From an uncultured Ruminococcus sp. (GTDB lineage: Bacteria > Bacillota > Clostridia > Oscillospirales > Acutalibacteraceae), in NCBI GenBank assembly GCA_902766305.1, contig CACXDE010000246.1:1-13751 (forward strand): a DNA stretch of 13,751 nt. Reading direction: 5' to 3'. Position 1 is the stretch's first letter. Every line of letters starts with the position of its first letter. The position numbers and the translations under genes were made by a program. Of the stretch, positions 1,507-12,089 are shown piece by piece. A model generated the notes under the pieces. That model had not been told where the DNA came from. It saw only the letters and a list, made by a program, of their open reading frames with translations, and searched no databases.

Positions 1507-1543
1507 AGTTTAAACTGTATTTATGGAAAGCAGAGCTGGTTTT

Positions 1544-4500
1544 ATGAAAAAGAGATCAAGATCAATAATACTTATTGCTGTGGTTGTTATACTGCTGATC
1601 GCCGCAAATATTGCTGAGATTGCAGTAGTGTTCAATGTCACAACAATGAATACTACAAAATATGGTGAAGACAGGCTCGAAGCTATCAGCAGAGAGCTTG
1701 AAAAAACTATTGATGATACAAAAATTTCTACTCTGCGTTTTGCAAATGAGGTTCAGCCTCTTATCAGTGACCGTAAAGCTTGTGAAGCCTTTGTACGAAA
1801 TAAAAAGAAGGAAATGATAGAGGCTACCAAAGCTGTATGCTTTAATGTATATCTTGCGACAGATGGCTGGTACTATATTCCTGATTTTAATTCGCCTGAT
1901 GATTATGTTATAGAAAAGCGTTCATGGTACACCGGAGCAGTGAAACAACAGGGAAAGCCTTATGTTACCGATCCGTATGTTGACGCTATGACAGGAAATA
2001 TCTGCTTTTCTGTTTCTGTGCTGCTTGCTGACGGAAAGTCTATTGCCTGTATGGATTATACTATGGAAAATGTACAGATGCACATACGTCAGATGAATTA
2101 TGACAGCGATCAGAAGGCTGTTATCTTGACTGATGAGGGCATTATCGCCGGATGTACTGAAGAATCTCTTGTAGGCAAGAAGCTGATGCAGGAGCTGCCG
2201 GATTATGCCGGAGTTTTCTCGCTTGTTAAAAGCAGTGACCACACTGTTACTATAAATCAGCGCGGAAACAGCATATTTGCCGCTTCATCGGGTTTCGGCT
2301 GGTATCTTATTGTCAGCGAAAATCACTGGAATCTCTACAGAACATCATACATTTCAATGCTTTTGATGATCGTATTATCGCTGTCTATTTTCGGTGTAAT
2401 ACTTACGCTTTACATACTTGCAGTAAAAAGCGAAAAACGGGCACAGCAGGAGCTTATATCTGCTAAAAATTACTTTTCGGATATTTCGCTCGAACTGCAT
2501 GAACCTTTGGATAAGATCATAAACGGTTCAAGCGTTGAGAATATCAAAAACTCCCCGGATTATGAACAGGAATTTGTAAGTATAAGAGAGTCGGGCGAAA
2601 AGCTTTCGGAAATAATAGGAAAATTGCAGTCATATACGGAGCTTATCGTAAAATCAGAAACTAAAAAAGATAGTAAGAAGAAAAAACTTCATGATGTTAC
2701 TGTAAGCAAAAGATTCAGGGCAATTATTCTTTCTATACTGATACTTGTAACGGTTATATGCGTTTATCTGAACTATATGACAATGGTGTATTACGGTGAA
2801 GGAGAGATGCAGAAATCCGCTGCAAATTATGATTATAAGCTTTCAGAATGGATTAATACCCAGAAAAGTATCCTTGATATGTTTTGCAGCAATATATCTA
2901 CTGACCCTGATATACTAAATGATTATGACAAAGCCGTGGAATATCTTGACAAGATAACAAAACAGTATCCTGAGATATCAGTAAGCTATATGACAAACCC
3001 TGATATGGAGCATACTGTAATTATGAACAACGGTTGGGAGCCTGATGATAACTGGAAGGTTGAAGAACGTGACTGGTACAAGGATCTTATGGCCTCTGAG
3101 GGAAGCTGGCTGATCTCTTCCCCCTACTATGATGAACAAACGGGGCTTTACTGTGTGACGTTCGCTAAAAAAGTATACAATTACAAAACCGGAGAATTTC
3201 TGGGTAATTTCGGTATTGATTTTTATATGGATAAGCTTGTGGACATTTTAGGCAGCAGCTATGGGGATAGTCAGTATGCCTTTCTGGTGGACGCAAAGGG
3301 AGAAATAATAAACCATCCCTTCGGCAAATATCAGATGTCAGAAAACGAATCTACAAATATTGTAAGTCTGCCGTATAATTTATCTGTAACGAACGGTAAG
3401 GATATTGAGATTATAAAGGATTACGATGACAGGTACAAGCTTATCATTTCTACAAGAAATGAAGTGTCCGGATTTTCAACATATGTGGTAAACGATATTT
3501 TCTCTGTTTACAGCAACATATTTATAACAGGAACTATCTGTCTTCTGTCGATGATAATCTGTGTTATACTGGTTTATACTCTTATAACAAATCTTATCAA
3601 TCTCCAGAATAAAGCAAATATCAATCTGCGTGAATCTGCTGACGCTGCTATAGCGGCTGATAAGGCAAAAAGCGATTTCCTTGCCCAGATGTCACATGAG
3701 ATACGAACGCCTATCAATGCCGTTCTGGGAATGAATGAGATGATACTCCACGAAAGCAGTGACCCGCGGATAAGGGAGTATTCCGCAAATATACAAAGCT
3801 CTGGAAAAACCCTGCTGTCTCTGATTAACAGCATACTTGATTTTTCAAAGATCGAAAATAATAAAATGGAGATAATCCCTGTCGAATATGAAACAGCCGT
3901 TATGATAAATGATCTTGTAACATCTGTCAAACAGCGTGCCGCAGATAAGGGACTGGAATTTACGGTTGAAGCTGATAAGGAGCTTCCGAGTATGCTCAGA
4001 GGCGATGATGTAAGAATAAAGCAGGTAATAGTTAATCTTCTTACAAATGCAGTAAAATATACTGAAAAGGGTTCTGTCAGACTTACTGTCAGACAGGAAG
4101 CAAGAACTGATAAAACAGTTCAGATATATGTTAATGTAAAGGATACAGGCATAGGTATACGTGAGGAAGATATAGAGGGCTTGTTCACTTCCTTCAAGAG
4201 ACTTGATGAAAAGCGCAACCGCGATATAGAAGGAACTGGTCTTGGTATGTCTATTGCTACAAAGCTTCTTGAAATGATGGGGAGCAAGCTTGAGGTAAAA
4301 AGCGTATATGGTAAAGGCTCGGAATTTTTCTTCATTCTTGACCAGGGTATAGCAGATGAAAAACCGATGGGAGAATATAACAAGCATAATGAATCCGAAC
4401 AGAACAGCAGAAATGCAGATCAGATACTTTATGCGCCGGACGTAAAAATACTGGTTGTTGATGATAATGCTATGAATCTCAAGGTAGCGGAAAACTTCCT

Positions 4501-5254
4501 GAGTATTTACGGTATAAATGCGGATAAGGCTTCCTCCGGTGCTGAATGTCTTGATATTATCCGGAAAAATAAATATGATATAATACTGCTCGATCATATG
4601 ATGCCGAAGATGGACGGTATTGAAGTACTGAAAGAGATTAAGAGCAGGAAGCTTGTTCCGGATAATACTAAAATAATCGTTCTTACTGCAAATGCGATAA
4701 TCGGTTCAAGAGAAGCGTACATCAGTGAAGGCTTTGACGGCTACCTGACAAAGCCGGTCGAAAGAAAAGAGCTTGAAAAGATACTCAGACAGTATCTTCC
4801 GGACGACAAAATATCATTCAGACCGGCAGAGAAACCGGCGGCAAAGACAGAGGAAGCTGCCGCAGATGACGACAGCTTTACGATGAAGGATATTATGGAT
4901 ATCAGGGATATCTGTCCGGAGCTTAATATGCCGGCAGGTCTTGCAAACTGTATGGATTCAAAAGAGTTCTGGCTGGATACTGCGTCCGGCTTTGTTGAAT
5001 CAGAGAGAACCGGGGAGCTTTGCTCAGCCCTTGAAAACAAGGACTGGAAGCTGTACAGAATTGTTGTACACAGCATGAAAAGCGCCTCAAAAACAATAGG
5101 CGCTGAAATGATCTCAGAACGTGCAAAACGGCTGGAGCTTTCAGCGGCAAACGGTGAAACAGAGGTTATCCTTCGTGATAATGATGATTTTGTTTCGGAT
5201 TTCAGGAAACTCATAGAAAACATAAGAAAGGTGCTGGAAATATGTTCAAAGTAA
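1544..5254 (+). CDS. Large hybrid sensor histidine kinase with two sensor halves (Cache-pseudoDHp-Cache-DHp-CA-REC-HPt)
   Basis: This is a membrane sensor kinase of 1236 residues. I chose ATG 1544: it starts with MKKRSRS before a membrane helix, has GAG at 1533-1535, and the ATG at 1523 has no ribosome site. In order there are TM 7-30; an extracytoplasmic dCache-like domain (about 35-265); TM 269-294; a degenerate DHp-like helical pair (306-372) with Leu316 in the histidine position; TM 393-414; a second dCache-like domain (418-650); and TM 658-683. Then come a normal DHp with SHEIRTP and His718; an ATPase domain with N-box Asn831/Asn835, DTGIGI 867-872 and GTGLGM 897-902; a receiver with Asp973/Asp974, Asp1017, Thr1048 and Lys1070; an Ala/acid linker; and an HPt with His1176. 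The likely relay is His718 to Asp1017 to His1176. The stop overlaps the next gene by 13 nt. The ligand is unknown. Confidence 0.9.
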   Translation: MKKRSRSIILIAVVVILLIAANIAEIAVVFNVTTMNTTKYGEDRLEAISRELEKTIDDTKISTLRFANEVQPLISDRKACEAFVRNKKKEMIEATKAVCFNVYLATDGWYYIPDFNSPDDYVIEKRSWYTGAVKQQGKPYVTDPYVDAMTGNICFSVSVLLADGKSIACMDYTMENVQMHIRQMNYDSDQKAVILTDEGIIAGCTEESLVGKKLMQELPDYAGVFSLVKSSDHTVTINQRGNSIFAASSGFGWYLIVSENHWNLYRTSYISMLLMIVLSLSIFGVILTLYILAVKSEKRAQQELISAKNYFSDISLELHEPLDKIINGSSVENIKNSPDYEQEFVSIRESGEKLSEIIGKLQSYTELIVKSETKKDSKKKKLHDVTVSKRFRAIILSILILVTVICVYLNYMTMVYYGEGEMQKSAANYDYKLSEWINTQKSILDMFCSNISTDPDILNDYDKAVEYLDKITKQYPEISVSYMTNPDMEHTVIMNNGWEPDDNWKVEERDWYKDLMASEGSWLISSPYYDEQTGLYCVTFAKKVYNYKTGEFLGNFGIDFYMDKLVDILGSSYGDSQYAFLVDAKGEIINHPFGKYQMSENESTNIVSLPYNLSVTNGKDIEIIKDYDDRYKLIISTRNEVSGFSTYVVNDIFSVYSNIFITGTICLLSMIICVILVYTLITNLINLQNKANINLRESADAAIAADKAKSDFLAQMSHEIRTPINAVLGMNEMILHESSDPRIREYSANIQSSGKTLLSLINSILDFSKIENNKMEIIPVEYETAVMINDLVTSVKQRAADKGLEFTVEADKELPSMLRGDDVRIKQVIVNLLTNAVKYTEKGSVRLTVRQEARTDKTVQIYVNVKDTGIGIREEDIEGLFTSFKRLDEKRNRDIEGTGLGMSIATKLLEMMGSKLEVKSVYGKGSEFFFILDQGIADEKPMGEYNKHNESEQNSRNADQILYAPDVKILVVDDNAMNLKVAENFLSIYGINADKASSGAECLDIIRKNKYDIILLDHMMPKMDGIEVLKEIKSRKLVPDNTKIIVLTANAIIGSREAYISEGFDGYLTKPVERKELEKILRQYLPDDKISFRPAEKPAAKTEEAAADDDSFTMKDIMDIRDICPELNMPAGLANCMDSKEFWLDTASGFVESERTGELCSALENKDWKLYRIVVHSMKSASKTIGAEMISERAKRLELSAANGETEVILRDNDDFVSDFRKLIENIRKVLEICSK

Positions 5255-5598
5255 TGTTCATTGATGATGATCCTATGGTGCTGCGGATGGCCGGATTCAT
5301 GATGAAAAAAATCGGTCATACAGCGTTAACAGTCTCTTCAGCAAATGAGGTAATGGCTACGGCAAAAGACAGCCGTCCTGACATAATATTTGTGGACGCT
5401 GAAATGCCGGATATGAATGGTCTTGACGTTATAAAAATGATAAAGTCAGATACTGATACAGCAGATATTCCTGTTTATATGATGTCAGGAACTGTATCGC
5501 AGGAGCTTAAAGTAAAAGCGATAAGCCTCGGAGCTGCCGGCGTTGTCGAAAAGCCTCTGAAAGCTCCTGAGATAGTAAAAATAGTATCAACTATATAA
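5242..5598 (+). CDS. Stand-alone response-regulator receiver domain
   Basis: This 118-residue protein is a single CheY-like receiver with no output domain. The acidic pocket DDD is at residues 8-10, the phosphoacceptor is Asp52 (in VDAEMPDMNG), Ser82 replaces the usual Thr, and the conserved Lys is Lys104 followed by Pro. The start codon lies inside the end of the kinase gene (13-nt overlap), with AAAGGTG at 5227-5233 as ribosome site. Translation is therefore probably coupled to the kinase. It probably takes phosphate from the kinase HPt (His1176) or from the HPt of the next protein, acting as a shuttle or phosphate sink. Single-domain receivers can also bind a target protein; the partner cannot be told from sequence. 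Confidence 0.9.
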   Translation: MFKVMFIDDDPMVLRMAGFMMKKIGHTALTVSSANEVMATAKDSRPDIIFVDAEMPDMNGLDVIKMIKSDTDTADIPVYMMSGTVSQELKVKAISLGAAGVVEKPLKAPEIVKIVSTI

Positions 5599-5613
5599 AT
5601 GGAGGATATTGTT

Positions 5614-7062
5614 ATGCAATACTGGACAGCTGTTGTAGATGATGATCCGTCAAATTTAAAAGCAGCGGAAAGAATACTCACTGCACACGGATTTAAAGTA
5701 AGCTGCTTTGCCTGCGCTGAGGAACTGCTGAATTTTTTAGACATTGATACACCTGATATAATTCTGCTTGATTTTCATATGCCGGGAATGAACGGCTTTG
5801 AAGCTCTCAGTCATATCAAATCAGGCTGTGACAGGATCAGCAGCATTCCTGTAATATTCCTGACAGCGGATGATGACAGCGAAACGGAAACAAGAGCTCT
5901 TGCGGCAGGAGCAATGGATTTTGTCAAAAAGCCTTTCAGTCCGTCTGTTCTTATTATGAGAGTTCAGAACACTATAAATCTTATCAGACTACAGACTGAT
6001 CTGAAAAAAGAAGTCAGCCGGATGACAAAGGAAATTATAAAGGAACACCAAAAGAATGAAAGGCTTTCACTTCAGATAGTTCAGACGCTTACAGGCACGA
6101 TAGACGCTAAAGACAGCTATACAAGAGGTCATTCCGGAAGGGTAGCTGATTATTCCCGTGAGATCGCAAAAAGAGCAGGCTACTCTAAAAGAGCGCAGGA
6201 AGAAATATATATGATGGGGCTTCTGCATGACGTCGGAAAGATCGGTATTCCGGACGGAGTTATCAACAAAACTTCAAGGCTCAATGATGAAGAATATGCT
6301 CTGATAAAGACGCACCCTAAGGTCGGCTTTGAAATACTGAAAAGCATTACGGAAATGCCGAAGCTTTCCATAGGCGCAAGGTGGCATCATGAAAGATATG
6401 ACGGCAGAGGCTATCCTGATAATCTTAGCGCAGAGGATATACCGGAAGAAGCAAGAATAATTGCAGTAGCTGACGCATATGACGCTATGTCTTCGCGAAG
6501 AAGCTATCATGAGGTATTTACTCAGGAATATATTTGCAGCGAGCTGGAAAAGGGCAGGGGCAGTCAGTTCGATCCGCGTTTTGCCGATATCATGCTTTCC
6601 ATAATCAAAGAGGATAAGGATTATCTTCTGAGAGAATTTCACGATAGAGAATCAGCGCCGGCAAAACAGAACATAAAGCAGGAGCCGGACATAAAAGCAA
6701 ATGTCCTGATAGAAATACTGAAAGGCGCAGGAATGAATCCGCTTATGGGTATGAAATACTGCATGAATGATATTGATTTCTATATGGAAATGCTGAGTGA
6801 ATTTGTAGATAATTCAGGCGGACGCATAGATGATATCAAAAGAAGCTATGAAGCAGCGGAAATTGATAAATACAGGATCACTGTACATGCTCTGAAAAGC
6901 ACTGCAAAGACTATAGGCGCAGATACGTTATCGGAATTAGCAGCCTCCCTTGAAGCGGCTGCAAAGAATAATGACATAGAATTGATCAATACGAATCATA
7001 ACAAATTAATAAACATGATAAATGACACAAAAAATATTATATGTGCGGCGCTTAAAGAATAA
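5614..7062 (+). CDS. Response regulator with HD-GYP cyclic-di-GMP phosphodiesterase and C-terminal HPt domain
   Basis: The protein has 482 residues. GGAGGAT at 5601-5607 fixes the start at ATG 5614; an in-frame ATG at 5599 would place this site inside the coding region. A receiver (1-120) has Asp9-11, phosphoacceptor Asp53, Thr84 and Lys106. A helical linker (120-155) leads to an HD-GYP domain with His173, the HD pair His205/Asp206, His234, the HHERYDGRGYP motif at 258-268 and Asp287. These residues predict a metal-dependent enzyme that hydrolyses cyclic-di-GMP. The C-terminus (about 375-482) is an HPt domain with His425 in VHALKSTAKTIGA, about half identical over 30 residues to the HPt of the upstream kinase. 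An HPt after HD-GYP is unusual. It is the last gene of the operon, 15 nt after the receiver gene. Activity probably depends on phosphorylation by the kinase. Confidence 0.92.
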   Translation: MQYWTAVVDDDPSNLKAAERILTAHGFKVSCFACAEELLNFLDIDTPDIILLDFHMPGMNGFEALSHIKSGCDRISSIPVIFLTADDDSETETRALAAGAMDFVKKPFSPSVLIMRVQNTINLIRLQTDLKKEVSRMTKEIIKEHQKNERLSLQIVQTLTGTIDAKDSYTRGHSGRVADYSREIAKRAGYSKRAQEEIYMMGLLHDVGKIGIPDGVINKTSRLNDEEYALIKTHPKVGFEILKSITEMPKLSIGARWHHERYDGRGYPDNLSAEDIPEEARIIAVADAYDAMSSRRSYHEVFTQEYICSELEKGRGSQFDPRFADIMLSIIKEDKDYLLREFHDRESAPAKQNIKQEPDIKANVLIEILKGAGMNPLMGMKYCMNDIDFYMEMLSEFVDNSGGRIDDIKRSYEAAEIDKYRITVHALKSTAKTIGADTLSELAASLEAAAKNNDIELINTNHNKLINMINDTKNIICAALKE

Positions 7063-7905: not shown

Positions 7906-7919
7906 AGGTTTGTATGTAT

Positions 7920-7938
7920 TTTGAATACTTCATTCAAA
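7920..7938. promoter_or_regulatory. Inverted repeat between promoter and ribosome site (candidate operator or leader hairpin)
   Basis: The arms TTTGAAT (7920-7926) and ATTCAAA (7932-7938) are exact reverse complements around ACTTC. An overlapping dyad, GTATT-TTG-AATAC (7916-7928), lies at the predicted transcription start. The size suits a TetR-type operator, and a TetR-type gene is divergent next door. It could also be an RNA hairpin just before the AAAGGAAG ribosome site. Confidence 0.35.
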
Positions 7939-7955
7939 TGAAAGGAAGAAAAGAA

Positions 7956-9086
7956 ATGAAAATAAATAAGATTTTAAAACCCCTTGCTGCTGTCTCAGCG
8001 GCAGCTGTGATGTTTTCAATGGCAGGCTGCGCCGATACTTCATGGAGTCTCAGGACAAGCAACAAGGAGCTTTCCAACGGTATGTGGATATACAAGACAT
8101 ATTCAGAAATGAATCAGGCACTTCAGAAGTATCAGGAAGAAACCGGAAACTCTTTACAGCCGGGCGATGAGGGCTTTGCCGATAAAAAGGTAGAAAAGAA
8201 GAATATATATGAATGGATCGCTCAGAAGGCTAAGGACGACTGTGTTGAGGTATTGACTATAGAAAAGCTTGTCAAGGATAACAAGGTCAAGGTGGATAAG
8301 GAAAGCATAGAGTCAAACGAAAAGATGTATGAAACATATATGACACAGTACGGCATGGACAAAATGTATGAGCATCTGGGTGTATCGCTCAAATCTGCTG
8401 CTTATATGGACAGCACTGTCAGCACATACAAGGAGGATCTGTTCAAGAAGCTGTATGACAAGGAAGGTACTAAGGCTGTATCTGATGAAGATGTAAAGAA
8501 GTATTATACAGACAATTATACGGATTATTACTATATCCATTATTCCTTCAAGACCACAGATGATGACGGCAATTCACAGGATATAGACGATGATACCAAG
8601 GATAAGGTAACAAAGAACTTTGCAAAGTATGCAAAGGAACTAAGTGACGGCAGCAAGACTAAAACCGAGATAGACGAAGAATATAAGACAGATTTTGAGC
8701 TTGGCGATAACGGTACAGTACCAAGTGTTTCAGCCGCTGAAAAGCTTGACGATACAGATATCAAGGATGAAGTCAAGAACGAGATAAAGGCTCTCGGTGA
8801 TAAGAAGGCTACTGTCAAGCTTATTGATGATACATACTACCTGTTATATAAGGGCTCTATAAGCGAAAAGGCAGCCAAAATCACTGATGATACAAGTGTT
8901 GAGGACGCTGTATCAAGAATAAATATTGTTCATGAGATGAAGGACGATGAGTTTGACAAGTATATAGCGGCTGAAAAGAAGAAGCTGAAATATGACACCA
9001 ATGAGGATTGTTTGTCAAAGTACAGTGTTGAGAGAATGGTAAAACTCTATAATGAATTTGTAAATTCTCAGAGCGGAAACTCATAA
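7956..9086 (+). CDS. Extracytoplasmic lipoprotein resembling PrsA/SurA-type foldases
   Basis: A 376-residue lipoprotein. The start at 7956 is set by AAAGGAAG (7941-7948) and by the signal peptide that follows: MKINKILKPL, a hydrophobic segment, then the lipobox MAGC with lipidated Cys25. The mature part is Lys/Asp/Glu-rich and mostly helical, with segments such as AVSDEDVKKYYTDNYTDYYY that resemble the N-terminal and linker regions of PrsA/SurA chaperones. The following segment, IHYSFKTTDDDGN, looks like the start of a parvulin domain, but I cannot find a complete parvulin active site. It may be a chaperone without isomerase activity, a diverged parvulin, or a Clostridia-specific lipoprotein. 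It is monocistronic or followed by partial readthrough, since a hairpin lies directly downstream. Lipoprotein status is clear; foldase assignment is tentative. Confidence 0.75.
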   Translation: MKINKILKPLAAVSAAAVMFSMAGCADTSWSLRTSNKELSNGMWIYKTYSEMNQALQKYQEETGNSLQPGDEGFADKKVEKKNIYEWIAQKAKDDCVEVLTIEKLVKDNKVKVDKESIESNEKMYETYMTQYGMDKMYEHLGVSLKSAAYMDSTVSTYKEDLFKKLYDKEGTKAVSDEDVKKYYTDNYTDYYYIHYSFKTTDDDGNSQDIDDDTKDKVTKNFAKYAKELSDGSKTKTEIDEEYKTDFELGDNGTVPSVSAAEKLDDTDIKDEVKNEIKALGDKKATVKLIDDTYYLLYKGSISEKAAKITDDTSVEDAVSRINIVHEMKDDEFDKYIAAEKKKLKYDTNEDCLSKYSVERMVKLYNEFVNSQSGNS

Positions 9087-9139: not shown

Positions 9140-9159
9140 ACTTAGTGAGGAGGAGTATA

Positions 9160-10269
9160 GTGAATATTCTGAAAAGTTTTCCGACAGATGATGGATTTTA
9201 TATGCCGGCGGAATTTTCAAAACACAGCGGCTGTATACTTATCTGGCCGCACAGAAGGGATTCATGGCAAAGCGGCGCATATGCCGCAAGACGAGCCTTT
9301 ACAGAACTTATAAAAATAATATCATTGTCGGAAAATGTAACGGTATGCGCAAGATATGAAGATTATGACGAGGCAAGACGTATGCTGCCGCCGTATGTTC
9401 GTGTTGTTGAAATGAACAGCGATGACAGCTGGGCAAGGGACGTTGCGCCGACCTTTGTGACTGACGGAAAGTCAATAAGAGGAATAGACTGGGGATTCAA
9501 TGCTTGGGGCGGTCTTGAAGACGGACTGTATTTTCCGTGGGATAAGGACAACAAGATGGCGAGAAAGCTTTGCGACCTGCTTGACAAAGACTGCTATGAT
9601 ATGAGGAATTTCATACTTGAGGGCGGTTCTGTACATACAGACGGAGATGGTACTCTTATTACAACCGAAGAATGTCTGCTGAGTAAAGGACGAAATCCAT
9701 CTATGAGTAAAACCGAAATTGAAGAAAAGCTTTGCAGAACTCTTGGAGTAAAAAAAGTTATATGGCTCAGAAGCGGAATATATAACGATGAAACAAACGG
9801 GCATGTTGATAATATTTGCGCCTTTACCTCTCCCGGAAATGTCGTTTTAGCGTGGACTGACGACAAAAACGACCCACAGTATGAAAGATCCGCCGGATGC
9901 CTTGAAACGCTTGAAAATACCACTGACGCAAAAGGCAGAACTATAAAAGTACACAAGCTGCCTCTCCCCTCTCCTGTATATATAACCTCTGAGGAATGCG
10001 AAGGTCTTGACAATATGGACGGCGAACCTACACGCACTCCCGGTGAAAGGCTTGCGGCATCATATGTCAATTTCTATATATCAAACGGTCATGTTATCGT
10101 TCCGCAGTTTGATGATGAAAATGACGAAAAAGCGCTTGATATTCTGCGTCCGCTTTTCCCTGACAGAGAGGTTATTGGAATAAGGGCGAGGGATATACTC
10201 ATCGGCGGAGGAAATATTCATTGTATCACACAACAGATACCTCAGGATATGACAGCTTTTAGTAAATAA
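9160..10269 (+). CDS. aguA: Agmatine deiminase
   Basis: It hydrolyses agmatine to N-carbamoylputrescine and ammonia, the first step of the route from arginine-derived agmatine to putrescine. I chose GTG 9160 because GAGGAGGAG (9147-9155) is a strong ribosome site just before it. The in-frame GTG at 9145 overlaps that site. The resulting 369 residues match the usual length. Family marks: MPAEFSKHSGCILIWPHR at residues 15-32, SWARDVAP with its catalytic aspartate, ILEGGSVHTDGDGT, NGHVDN with the catalytic His/Asp, and the C-terminal GGGNIHCITQQIP with nucleophile Cys355. The downstream N-carbamoylputrescine amidase makes this assignment much better than a peptidyl-arginine deiminase. No promoter of its own is obvious; it may depend on readthrough of the hairpin upstream. 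Confidence 0.93.
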   Translation: MNILKSFPTDDGFYMPAEFSKHSGCILIWPHRRDSWQSGAYAARRAFTELIKIISLSENVTVCARYEDYDEARRMLPPYVRVVEMNSDDSWARDVAPTFVTDGKSIRGIDWGFNAWGGLEDGLYFPWDKDNKMARKLCDLLDKDCYDMRNFILEGGSVHTDGDGTLITTEECLLSKGRNPSMSKTEIEEKLCRTLGVKKVIWLRSGIYNDETNGHVDNICAFTSPGNVVLAWTDDKNDPQYERSAGCLETLENTTDAKGRTIKVHKLPLPSPVYITSEECEGLDNMDGEPTRTPGERLAASYVNFYISNGHVIVPQFDDENDEKALDILRPLFPDREVIGIRARDILIGGGNIHCITQQIPQDMTAFSK

Positions 10270-10288
10270 CACATTAAAATTCAACAGA

Positions 10289-10321
10289 GTTTTCAACATT
10301 TGCGGTTAAAATGTTGAAAAC
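10289..10321 (+). promoter_or_regulatory. Perfect 13-bp stem-loop between aguA and aguB
   Basis: The arms GTTTTCAACATTT (10289-10301) and AAATGTTGAAAAC (10309-10321) are exact complements around a 7-nt loop GCGGTTA. It starts about 20 nt after the aguA stop and ends 3 nt before the GGAGGT ribosome site of aguB. No T-run follows, so it is not a standard terminator. A role in mRNA processing, in control of aguB translation, or as a DNA operator are all possible. Confidence 0.6.
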
Positions 10322-10334
10322 ATTGGAGGTAATT

Positions 10335-11210
10335 ATGAAAAATGTTAAGATAGGTGCTGTACAGATGTCTATGACAGAAAACGCTCAGGAGAATATTCAG
10401 AAAGCCGATACTCTTGTAAGAGCAGCGGCGGCGGACGGATGCAATATAATACTTTTGCCGGAGCTTTTTGAAAATCTCTATTTCTGTCAGGAAAGAAATT
10501 ATGATAACTATAAGCTTGCCCTTGAAACGGAAAACAACCCGGCAGTAAAGCATTTTATGCAGACAGCAAAGGAGCTCGGCGTTATAATACCAGTAAGCTT
10601 TTACGAAAAGGACATTAATTCTATATACAATTCGGTTGCTATGATAGATGCTGACGGAACACTTATGGGCATATACCGCAAATCTCATATCCCTGACGAT
10701 CATTTTTATCAGGAGAAGTTTTACTTTACTCCGGGAAATACGGGATTCAAGGTATGGGATACAAAATTCGGCAGGATAGGAGTAGGAATATGCTGGGATC
10801 AGTGGTTTCCGGAAGCTGCAAGATGTATGGCGCTGATGGGTGCACAGCTTTTGTTATATCCTACGGCGATAGGCAGTGAGCCTATACTTGAGGTCGACAG
10901 TATGCCGCACTGGAGACGCTGTATGCAGGGTCATGCGGCGGCAAATATAGTTCCGGTCATTGCCGCCAACAGAGTCGGTACAGAAGCAGTAACACCAGAT
11001 GAAGCAAATAACGGACAAAGCTCTGCCCTGACGTTTTACGGATCGTCATTTATTACTGACGAAACAGGAGAAATAATAGAATCCGCAGACCGGGAAACTG
11101 AATGCGTTATCACGGCTGAATTTGATCTTGACAAAACAGATGAAATGCGTTTCAGCTGGGGTCTGTTCCGTGACAGACGGCCGGAGCTTTACAAAATAAT
11201 AACAGAGTGA
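10335..11210 (+). CDS. aguB: N-carbamoylputrescine amidase (nitrilase superfamily)
   Basis: It hydrolyses N-carbamoylputrescine to putrescine, CO2 and ammonia, completing the pathway begun by the upstream agmatine deiminase. The start is ATG 10335, with GGAGGT at 10325-10330; an in-frame ATG at 10311 lies inside the stem-loop and has no ribosome site. The 291-residue protein has the nitrilase catalytic triad: Glu43 in LPELFEN, Lys116 in YRKSHIPDD and Cys153 in GICWDQWFPE. The segments RKSHIPDDHFYQEKFYF and WGLFRDRRPELY are typical of AguB rather than of other nitrilases. It shares a transcript with aguA and ends just before a strong terminator. Confidence 0.94.
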   Translation: MKNVKIGAVQMSMTENAQENIQKADTLVRAAAADGCNIILLPELFENLYFCQERNYDNYKLALETENNPAVKHFMQTAKELGVIIPVSFYEKDINSIYNSVAMIDADGTLMGIYRKSHIPDDHFYQEKFYFTPGNTGFKVWDTKFGRIGVGICWDQWFPEAARCMALMGAQLLLYPTAIGSEPILEVDSMPHWRRCMQGHAAANIVPVIAANRVGTEAVTPDEANNGQSSALTFYGSSFITDETGEIIESADRETECVITAEFDLDKTDEMRFSWGLFRDRRPELYKIITE

Positions 11211-11411: not shown

Positions 11412-12089
11412 TTAAGAATTTTTCAGTTCATCAATGTCATAAACTTTGCCTTCTTCATATTCAAGACCCTTACCTGATGGATACTGTTTCTTACCGTCAT
11501 TAAAGATAATAAGCGGATTTTCAATATCTTCTGAGATACTGTATGAGTATGTTCCGTCATCTTCTTTTGTCATCGGTTCACCAGGCCATGGAGCATTTTC
11601 AGTCTTTACACCATCTACTTCATTGTAGATATAAACATTTATATCATCGCCCCATTTTTCACCTTTCTTCATCTTAATTACATTCTTATCGCCTGTTTCA
11701 TCAGACTTGCTTTCCTCTTCTTCCTTGGAGTCCTCAGTCTCAGATGATTCTTCTTCCTCAGAAGACTCTTCAGCTTCAGATGATTCCTCAGCCTCAGATG
11801 ACTCTTCCTCTGCTTCAGAAGATTCCTCAGCCTCAGATGACTCTTCCTCTGCTTCAGAAGATTCATCAGTCTCTTCAGCCTCTGACGATTCTCCATCACC
11901 TTCGTCAGTTGTAGTAGTTGTTGTATCAAGACCATCACCAGTTGAATCACCGGCAGAATCACTTGCACCCGCACCGCCGACAGCACCGCCGTGGATAGCC
12001 ACGCTTGCAGCACAGCCTGACATGAGAGCAGCCGAAGAAGCCGCTATTGCCAGCGTAAGCAGTATAGTCAAAAGTTTTTTCTTGTTCAT
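11412..12089 (-). CDS. Lipoprotein with Ser/Glu-repeat linker and CBM26-like starch-binding domain
   Basis: A 225-residue surface lipoprotein. Residues 1-26 are a lipoprotein signal peptide with box LMSGC (Cys26). Residues 27-66 are Gly/Ala/Ser/Thr-rich. Residues 67-135 are a strongly acidic low-complexity linker of ESSEAEE-type repeats. The C-terminal part (about 136-225) resembles family 26 carbohydrate-binding modules: KKGEKWGDDINVYIYN, then APWPGEPMTKEDDGTYSYSI and LIIFNDGKKQYPSG. The aromatic residues Trp146, Tyr153 and Trp168 are candidate sugar contacts. The likely role is anchoring to starch or related glucans at the cell surface. No catalytic domain is present. Ribosome site GGAGGT at 12098-12103. 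A cell-wall spacer protein without sugar binding cannot be excluded. Confidence 0.8.
   Translation of the reverse strand: MNKKKLLTILLTLAIAASSAALMSGCAASVAIHGGAVGGAGASDSAGDSTGDGLDTTTTTTDEGDGESSEAEETDESSEAEEESSEAEESSEAEEESSEAEESSEAEESSEEEESSETEDSKEEEESKSDETGDKNVIKMKKGEKWGDDINVYIYNEVDGVKTENAPWPGEPMTKEDDGTYSYSISEDIENPLIIFNDGKKQYPSGKGLEYEEGKVYDIDELKNS
11782..11859. repeat. Perfect 39-bp tandem duplication inside the lipoprotein linker
   Basis: Positions 11782-11820 and 11821-11859 are identical, and a partial third copy (GATTC, then divergence) follows. The unit encodes 13 residues, so changes in copy number keep the reading frame. Perfect identity at synonymous sites points to a recent slippage or recombination event rather than selection on protein alone. 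Confidence 0.85.

Follow-up and report, generated by a model that had tools for sequence, protein, structure and literature searches.

The window analysed here, the whole 13,751-nucleotide stretch of contig CACXDE010000246.1 (assembly GCA_902766305.1) from an uncultured Ruminococcus sp., carries a gene for a hybrid sensor histidine kinase that consists of two sensor-kinase halves, the first of which ends in a degenerate DHp (dimerization and histidine phosphotransfer) hairpin in place of a working kinase core. A preliminary description of this DNA had started the protein at the second ATG (position 1544), so that 7 must be added to its residue numbers to obtain those of the 1243-residue protein, whose numbering we use unless otherwise marked. 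In the full-length protein, Pfam recognizes dCache_1 (two stretches), one clear HisKA domain (the HisKA line for the whole protein comprises two stretches), HATPase_c, Response_reg and a weak Hpt domain. The kinase motifs read from the sequence are SHEIRTP, NLLTNAVKYT (N), DTGIGI and GTGLGM (G1 and G2), and together with the receiver (REC) and Hpt domains they identify a hybrid histidine kinase; the Hpt domain of the window protein scores below the Pfam cut-off, that of its relative L063 above it. The first DHp, hereafter the pseudo-DHp, lies between transmembrane helices (TM) 2 and 3, and what follows it is a Lys-rich linker, TM3 and a second Cache domain, the ATPase (CA) domain being absent there by Pfam and the structure model, just as the preliminary description had indicated.

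Table 1. Features of the kinase gene and of the two genes downstream of it (window positions).
Feature	Position	Strand	Residues, basis and remarks
Two-half hybrid sensor histidine kinase gene	1523-5254	+	1243 residues; open reading frame (ORF) call
Cache1, first extracellular dCache_1	1640..2332	+	residues 40-270; Pfam, structure model
Cache1 amino-acid motif			Y128 R133 W135 Y136 Y152 D178 (preliminary numbering Y121 R126 W128 Y129 Y145 D171)
Pseudo-DHp hairpin	2429..2662	+	residues 303-380 (preliminary numbering 296-373); between TM2 and TM3
Codon CTC at the phosphoacceptor position	2489-2491	+	Leu323 (preliminary numbering Leu316)
Lys-rich flexible tether, pseudo-DHp to TM3	2636..2716	+	length variable in the family; low predicted local distance difference test score (pLDDT)
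Cache2, second extracellular dCache_1	2780..3502	+	residues 420-660; motif W511 R516 W518 Y519 Y535 D566
True HisKA/DHp	3665..3859	+	residues 715-779; Pfam, alignment
Codon CAT, conserved phosphoacceptor	3695..3697	+	His725
ATPase (CA) domain	4001..4345	+	residues 827-941; Pfam
Receiver (REC) domain	4448..4786	+	residues 976-1088; Pfam
Hpt domain	4970..5197	+	approximately residues 1150-1225; Pfam 22.4 bits against a cut-off of 24.6
Single-domain receiver gene	5242..5598	+	start overlaps the end of the kinase gene
REC-HD-GYP-Hpt gene	5599..7062	+	presumed cyclic di-GMP (c-di-GMP) phosphodiesterase partner; Pfam

A degenerate DHp hairpin between two sensors

The preliminary description had aligned its residues 306-372 with the true DHp, and these residues are a degenerate histidine-kinase DHp hairpin located between the two dCache sensors. 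Taken by itself, the window's segment is suggestive of this identity: HisKA (PF00512) is its best Pfam family, at 13.6-13.8 bits (E 0.061-0.072), well short of the gathering score of 26.9. With its relatives included, the likeness exceeds chance. HisKA is matched at E<=1 by 25 of the 29 family segments (best 1.4e-7), profile-profile comparison of the pseudo-DHp with the true DHp gives Prob 95.8 and P 8e-9, and the family profile matches solved kinases in the PDB, including CpxA and DivL (E 1e-4). When the comparison was slid along the protein in 58 windows, the best 16 of which were listed, the only matches besides self-overlapping windows fell over the true DHp (Prob 52-96), and the best window away from both the segment and the true DHp reached Prob 2.2.

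The structure prediction that the preliminary description had proposed as a check yielded a DHp-like hairpin (AlphaFold2, pLDDT 78; helices 2-46, 48-53 and 57-96 of the model), and the 16 best Foldseek matches to this model are all kinases, with DivL among the top ones, though at weak E-values (0.049-0.79). By VIA Z the model ties with unrelated helical bundles, so that the fold alone is insufficient, generic helical pairs scoring equally. A coiled coil of non-DHp type is ruled out by the sequence profiles, and a chance likeness of two helical segments by the profile comparison, the PDB kinase matches and the HisKA matches across the family.

Loss of the phosphoacceptor histidine and retention of the segment

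At the site itself the preliminary description proved accurate in reading Leu316 in place of the histidine, with Glu317 and Pro321 kept (its numbering). We surveyed the site in 176 non-identical kinases of the same two-half layout, in which the histidine column reads G 86, A 35, S 20, N 8, T 5, D 5, K 4, L 4, R 3, H 2, E 2, V 1 and I 1; histidine is therefore missing in 174 of 176, and the predominance of G, A or S (141/176) suggests that its loss is old, or was repeated. That CTC is one base away from CAC is correct but incidental, since the site is mostly G, A or S, and a recent one-base loss in this genome is ruled out by the same column. The proline five residues past it (Pro328) is kept in 171 kinases, and the residue four past it, which serves phosphatase-active kinases when it follows a phosphoacceptor histidine, is mostly Glu (113/176). 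The true site, SHEIRTPIN, is invariant in an alignment of 120 proteins. We also considered the window's histidine three residues downstream (ELHEP) as a phosphoacceptor and rejected it, the four commonest letters of that column being R 54, Q 39, K 23 and H 16 of 176.

The same picture holds for 15 more divergent kinases from a wider search in which this column was inspected: 13 are without histidine at the site, among them L138, in which a histidine is shifted by one residue, and L143, which is without any segment, and two keep it, L129 (same gene as L151; MSHELKRPL) and L144 (LSHDLKDPL). The four relatives that keep the histidine (L144, L151, P0007 and P0119) are scattered over the tree, a distribution that fits an ancestral histidine lost many times, or some reversions. 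One genome titled Selenomonadaceae (G083) carries two two-half kinases, L144 with the histidine and L063 without it. Judged by these alignments, the absent histidine is a trait of the family and not a recent mutation. All three checks named in the preliminary description, on fold (with weak fold-search E-values), HisKA profile and homologues, favour its reading.

The tandem Cache sensor is not confined to kinases. Both Caches are present in a set of 216 proteins or ORFs that includes near-copies: 187 with kinase output, 23 with GGDEF output and 6 truncated. A pseudo-DHp profile scores above 25 bits in 186 of the 187 kinases (P0017 scores 13 bits), in all 6 truncated entries and in none of the 23 cyclases, a count that includes near-identical entries and is partly circular for the kinases, because the profile was built from 74 of them; the divergent members of the wider search lie outside this training set. 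The cyclases (L058, L060, L061 and P0132-P0151) share the Cache1-Cache2 sensor and the linker flanks and differ in their output and in the absence of the dead DHp: 21 different cyclase linkers align end to end with 157 kinase linkers (P 6e-25), interrupted by a single 64-residue gap that corresponds to the segment. They form one fully supported clade (20 of the 23 are in the trees), nested among segment-bearing kinases both in the L063-rooted tree and in a midpoint-drawn tree with divergent members, and representatives likewise take nested positions on the Cache1 and the Cache2 side of the paralogue trees, which suggests that the segment was lost in one event, at about the time a cyclase replaced the kinase. 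A second case is the kinase L143 (G284:C47, 1299 residues), which cleanly lacks the segment and has a linker resembling that of the cyclases, keeps the SHEIRTP, N, G1 and G2 motifs, REC and Hpt, and sits within a clade of kinases that carry the segment (Shimodaira-Hasegawa-like approximate likelihood ratio test [SH-aLRT] 100 and 98). On these trees, the segment has been cleanly lost twice, in the cyclase clade and in L143. The idea that kinase output needs the dead DHp is weakened accordingly, the cyclases representing one event and L143 being a kinase without it.

What remains appears to be under constraint. Pairwise ratios of nonsynonymous to synonymous substitution (dN/dS) for the pseudo-DHp are 0.02, 0.04, 0.06, 0.07, 0.13 and 0.23 in the six usable pairs of eight, two of which share L030; L044/L062 was dropped as saturated and L037/L046 because it has no synonymous difference in the segment and its later domains come from another gene. 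In five of the six pairs the values are near those of the Cache domains, and in the window's own pair the pseudo-DHp has the highest ratio of all domains (0.23 versus 0.04-0.11). As gauged by these ratios, purifying selection keeps the dead DHp. Conserved packing positions include Ile332 (174/176), Ile354 (172/176), Leu361 (176/176) and Tyr371 (170/176), and polar positions near the dead site are conserved as well, with Glu or Asp at 324 (134/176) and 327 (135/176) and Arg or Lys at 331 (141/176). Residue 355 in helix 2 (window 2585-2587) is His in 118 of the kinases and Arg in 47, the window having Arg. Being kept across most of the family, the dead DHp probably has a job of its own.

The relatives come from protein searches, from which the best 120 of 412 and the best 120 of 300 listed were taken, and from genome scans. 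One scan returned 47 loci, 36 in the family (L029-L064) and 11 distant single-Cache proteins, nearly all in metagenome assemblies, many from rumen or gut, in which binning errors are possible; record names include Ruminococcus, Lachnospiraceae, Butyrivibrio, Selenomonadaceae, Coriobacteriaceae and Treponema. Matches were found in 11 of 64 genomes of the window's genus (its own included), 8 of them strong (E <1e-40) and the three inspected more closely broken, in 3 of 391 genomes across the class, again including its own, and in 25 of 397 genomes of the family to which the L034 genome belongs, six of the 25 through Cache2 only. In L016, L017 and L019 (genomes G011, G004 and G037) the kinase gene is broken by frameshifts and deletions, through decay or assembly error; one broken sibling has lost most of Cache2 and runs into an HD-GYP gene, and another runs into an unrelated reading frame. 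A two-gene version in G004 and G037 was considered and rejected, because frameshifts and deletions in the ORFs explain the split forms.

Ligands, partner genes and origin of the two halves

Amino-acid-binding dCache_1AA domains are defined by Y121, R126, W128, Y129 and Y144 of PctA together with an Asp, D173 of PctD (PMC10104139). In Cache1 the R, W, Y and Y of this motif are present in 175 of the 176 kinases (one row is gapped), the D in all 176, and the first aromatic is Y in 112, F in 62, L in 1 and a gap in 1. Cache2 has the R, the W, the second pocket Tyr and the D in 176/176 and the structural Tyr in 174/176, and its first motif position is Trp, not Tyr, in 163/176. Both Caches share motif residues with the PctA-type receptors (PMC10104139, PMC11237719), Cache2 at all positions but the first, and from these receptors the present proteins differ in having two such domains in series per chain and in the Trp of Cache2. 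The Foldseek list is led by two chemoreceptor models and then by the amino-acid chemoreceptor domains Mlp24, Mlp37, PctA and CtaA. We infer that both Caches bind amino acids, a ligand that is a prediction here because dCache domains can also bind autoinducer-2 (PMC7584622).

The downstream neighbours point to c-di-GMP. The HD-GYP protein matches HD_5 (PF13487, E 2e-31) and contains HDVGK and GYP motifs, and at 18 of 24 full-length loci the kinase gene has an HD-GYP and/or GGDEF gene no more than 350 bases away (neighbour domains were Pfam-confirmed in a subset run); such a neighbour was not seen in the other six of the 24, L035, L038, L039, L045 (REC only), L048 and L059. In L150 (741-5639), a single 1633-residue protein comprises the whole two-half kinase and the REC-HD-GYP part, which in the window is encoded by a gene of its own. 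Genomic context therefore gives good support to a route from amino acids to c-di-GMP, and the cyclase clade would reach c-di-GMP without a relay.

As to origin, the preliminary description had left open an internal duplication or a fusion. The two halves are collinear (32-376 versus 417-779; profile comparison Prob 99.0, P 5.4e-18), as a tandem duplication of one half would predict, and a first test with other outgroups and without the six Caches described next did not reject a clade uniting Cache1 and Cache2 (approximately unbiased [AU] test, p 0.578); it was one of three tests, all with p >0.5, that preceded the discovery of closer chemoreceptors. A Cache2 profile, however, scores 132-253 bits on six single chemoreceptor-type Caches from the family of the L034 genome (Pfam shows chemoreceptors in both tested, L132 and L134) versus 20-58 bits on 22 Cache1s of the family itself. 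In trees, Cache2 joins three of these six (SH-aLRT 88) and Cache1 joins the single-Cache kinases L065 and P0131 (SH-aLRT 92), and in a second test, with these closer single-Cache relatives added, the clade uniting the two Caches was rejected (AU p 0.021, log-likelihood difference 35). The protein is thus likely, though not proven, to be a fusion of two different receptors, and a kinase origin of the first half agrees with the nearest relatives of Cache1 in these trees belonging to kinases; of the two origins proposed earlier, the fusion gains, and the tandem duplication, which the earlier test had left standing, is now disfavoured and improbable. A standalone first-half protein was not found in a length-limited search that returned 11 proteins, the 8 inspected being seven truncated- or broken-looking relatives and the single-Cache protein with HisKA, P0131.

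Elsewhere in the window, a gene of the agmatine-deiminase type (PAD_porph) is followed by a carbon-nitrogen hydrolase gene (9145-11210; Pfam), a pair that probably converts agmatine to putrescine. A 390-residue lipoprotein-like ORF at 7914-9086 has no Pfam match at E<=0.001, and another lipoprotein-like ORF on the minus strand (11412-12089) combines a Ser/Glu-rich repeat (periods 18, 21 and 39) with a CBM26 starch-binding module.

Candidate roles of the dead DHp

A clue to the role of the dead DHp comes from its spacing. In 175 of the 176 kinases exactly 32 residues separate TM2 from Pro328, and in all 176 exactly 41 separate TM4 from Pro730 of the true DHp. Behind the pseudo-DHp the distance to TM3 varies, from 25 to 32 residues in the 176 kinases and from 21 to 51 in an overlapping set of 54 that includes divergent members and L143, and the tether is predicted to be disordered (pLDDT <50 at 369-387, preliminary numbering). 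A fixed length on the TM2 side and a variable tether suggest that Cache1 is linked to the dead DHp in the way that sensors are linked to kinases, with no rigid coupling onward, and this combination is the principal argument that the dead DHp would act sideways. The preferred reading, to which we assign a probability of roughly 0.6, is that two receptors were fused and that the dead DHp, as the output of Cache1, acts sideways on the kinase core that sets c-di-GMP. The first receptor (Cache1-TM2-DHp) would descend from a sensor kinase with a single Cache, having shed the ATPase domain and, in almost every descendant, the phosphoacceptor histidine as well, and the second would be a chemoreceptor-like Cache (Cache2-TM4) driving a normal hybrid kinase, DHp-CA-REC-Hpt. 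The dead DHp would serve as the dimeric output of Cache1 and, flexibly tethered, may act on the core by docking to CA or REC or by bundle packing, without pulling on TM3, and the kinase would then set c-di-GMP through the REC and REC-HD-GYP-Hpt partners. The computation supports the homology, the dead site, the dead DHp being conserved and under selection, the TM2 spacing, the motifs and the partner genes; for the fusion its support is less firm. That two extracellular inputs may feed one kinase core, as the preliminary description had suggested, gains weight from the amino-acid motif residues present in both Caches and from the fixed TM2-to-pseudo-DHp length. Two observations weigh against this account: L143 is a kinase that has lost the segment, which is therefore kept by most members and indispensable to not all, weakening the case for two inputs on one core, and the first origin test left the clade of the two Caches standing.

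The segment might instead be a structural spacer, two helices that stabilize the dimer, fix the positions of TM2 and TM3 and have no part in signalling. Hydrophobic or helix-packing residues prevail at its most conserved positions (310-335, 336-383) and it can vanish cleanly with its flanks intact, both of which suit a spacer; the fixed length behind TM2, which mirrors the true kinase half, and the conserved polar positions 324, 327 and 331 beside the dead site do not, and we regard a mere spacer as unlikely, if worth serious attention. A docking role modelled on DivL, in which the dead DHp receives the protein's own REC or the neighbouring single REC and the state of Cache1 meets that of the relay as feedback, we consider doubtful. 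DivL, itself a DHp pseudokinase, binds DivK~P at its receiver-docking face, and divergent alphaproteobacteria without DivK often lack the DHp-CA part of DivL (PMC4211667); in parallel, the cyclase clade without the segment is also without a receiver, and DivL ranks high among both the profile and the fold matches. Yet L143 lost the segment and retains REC and Hpt, and the rank of DivL may reflect shared DHp ancestry alone. That the segment is a decaying relic without function, as two clean losses and one nearly unrecognizable copy might suggest, is disfavoured and highly improbable given dN/dS values of 0.02-0.23, the near-invariance of Ile332, Pro328 and Leu361, and its presence in deeply split lineages.

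Folds of this kind are used without autokinase activity in Spo0B, ChpT and RcsD, which are DHp-like or kinase-like; Spo0B and ChpT use a phosphorylated histidine and RcsD an Hpt, and they differ from the window's family, in which the site is dead in nearly all members. With the alphaproteobacterial pseudo-histidine kinase DivL (PMC4211667) the present proteins share a DHp fold without the phosphoacceptor histidine; DivL, however, is a separate protein with a CA domain, whereas the dead DHp of the window protein is followed by no CA domain (Pfam) and shares its chain with an intact kinase, flanked by two extracellular sensors. RocA of group A Streptococcus is likewise a catalysis-free membrane sensor-kinase homologue that modulates a true kinase, interacting with CovS, but it is a separate protein with a predicted dispensable histidine and a CA domain lacking several catalytic residues (PMC7028121). 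The open-access literature searched for dead, degenerate or tandem DHp domains and for two-Cache kinases describes the DivL, RocA and ChrS pseudokinases; no description of a dead DHp between the two sensors of a live kinase was found in its titles and abstract openings, nor, in the open-access literature, one of an amino-acid-to-c-di-GMP pathway of this kind in rumen and gut bacteria.

We conclude that the protein is most likely a two-input amino-acid receptor with the dead DHp as the output of Cache1. More specifically, and quite tentatively, the dead DHp could be a docking platform in cis that, set by Cache1 through a phased TM2, catches or releases the CA or REC domain of its own chain. If so, one receptor would compute a function of two amino-acid signals, and the family would be an in-chain counterpart of DivL-CckA, a kinase-derived receptor fused to a second receptor, able to replace the entire phosphorelay with a diguanylate cyclase that acts directly. 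The known dead histidine-kinase halves, DivL and RocA, are separate proteins, whereas here one sits within the chain of a live kinase, between two sensors, and does so across records named Ruminococcus, Lachnospiraceae and Selenomonadaceae. With its natural controls, the segment-free relatives (one kinase and one cyclase clade) and the four that keep the histidine, the family is well suited to studying the regulation of kinases by pseudokinases and the combination of two inputs, and it also suggests that rumen and gut bacteria have a pathway leading from amino acids to c-di-GMP.
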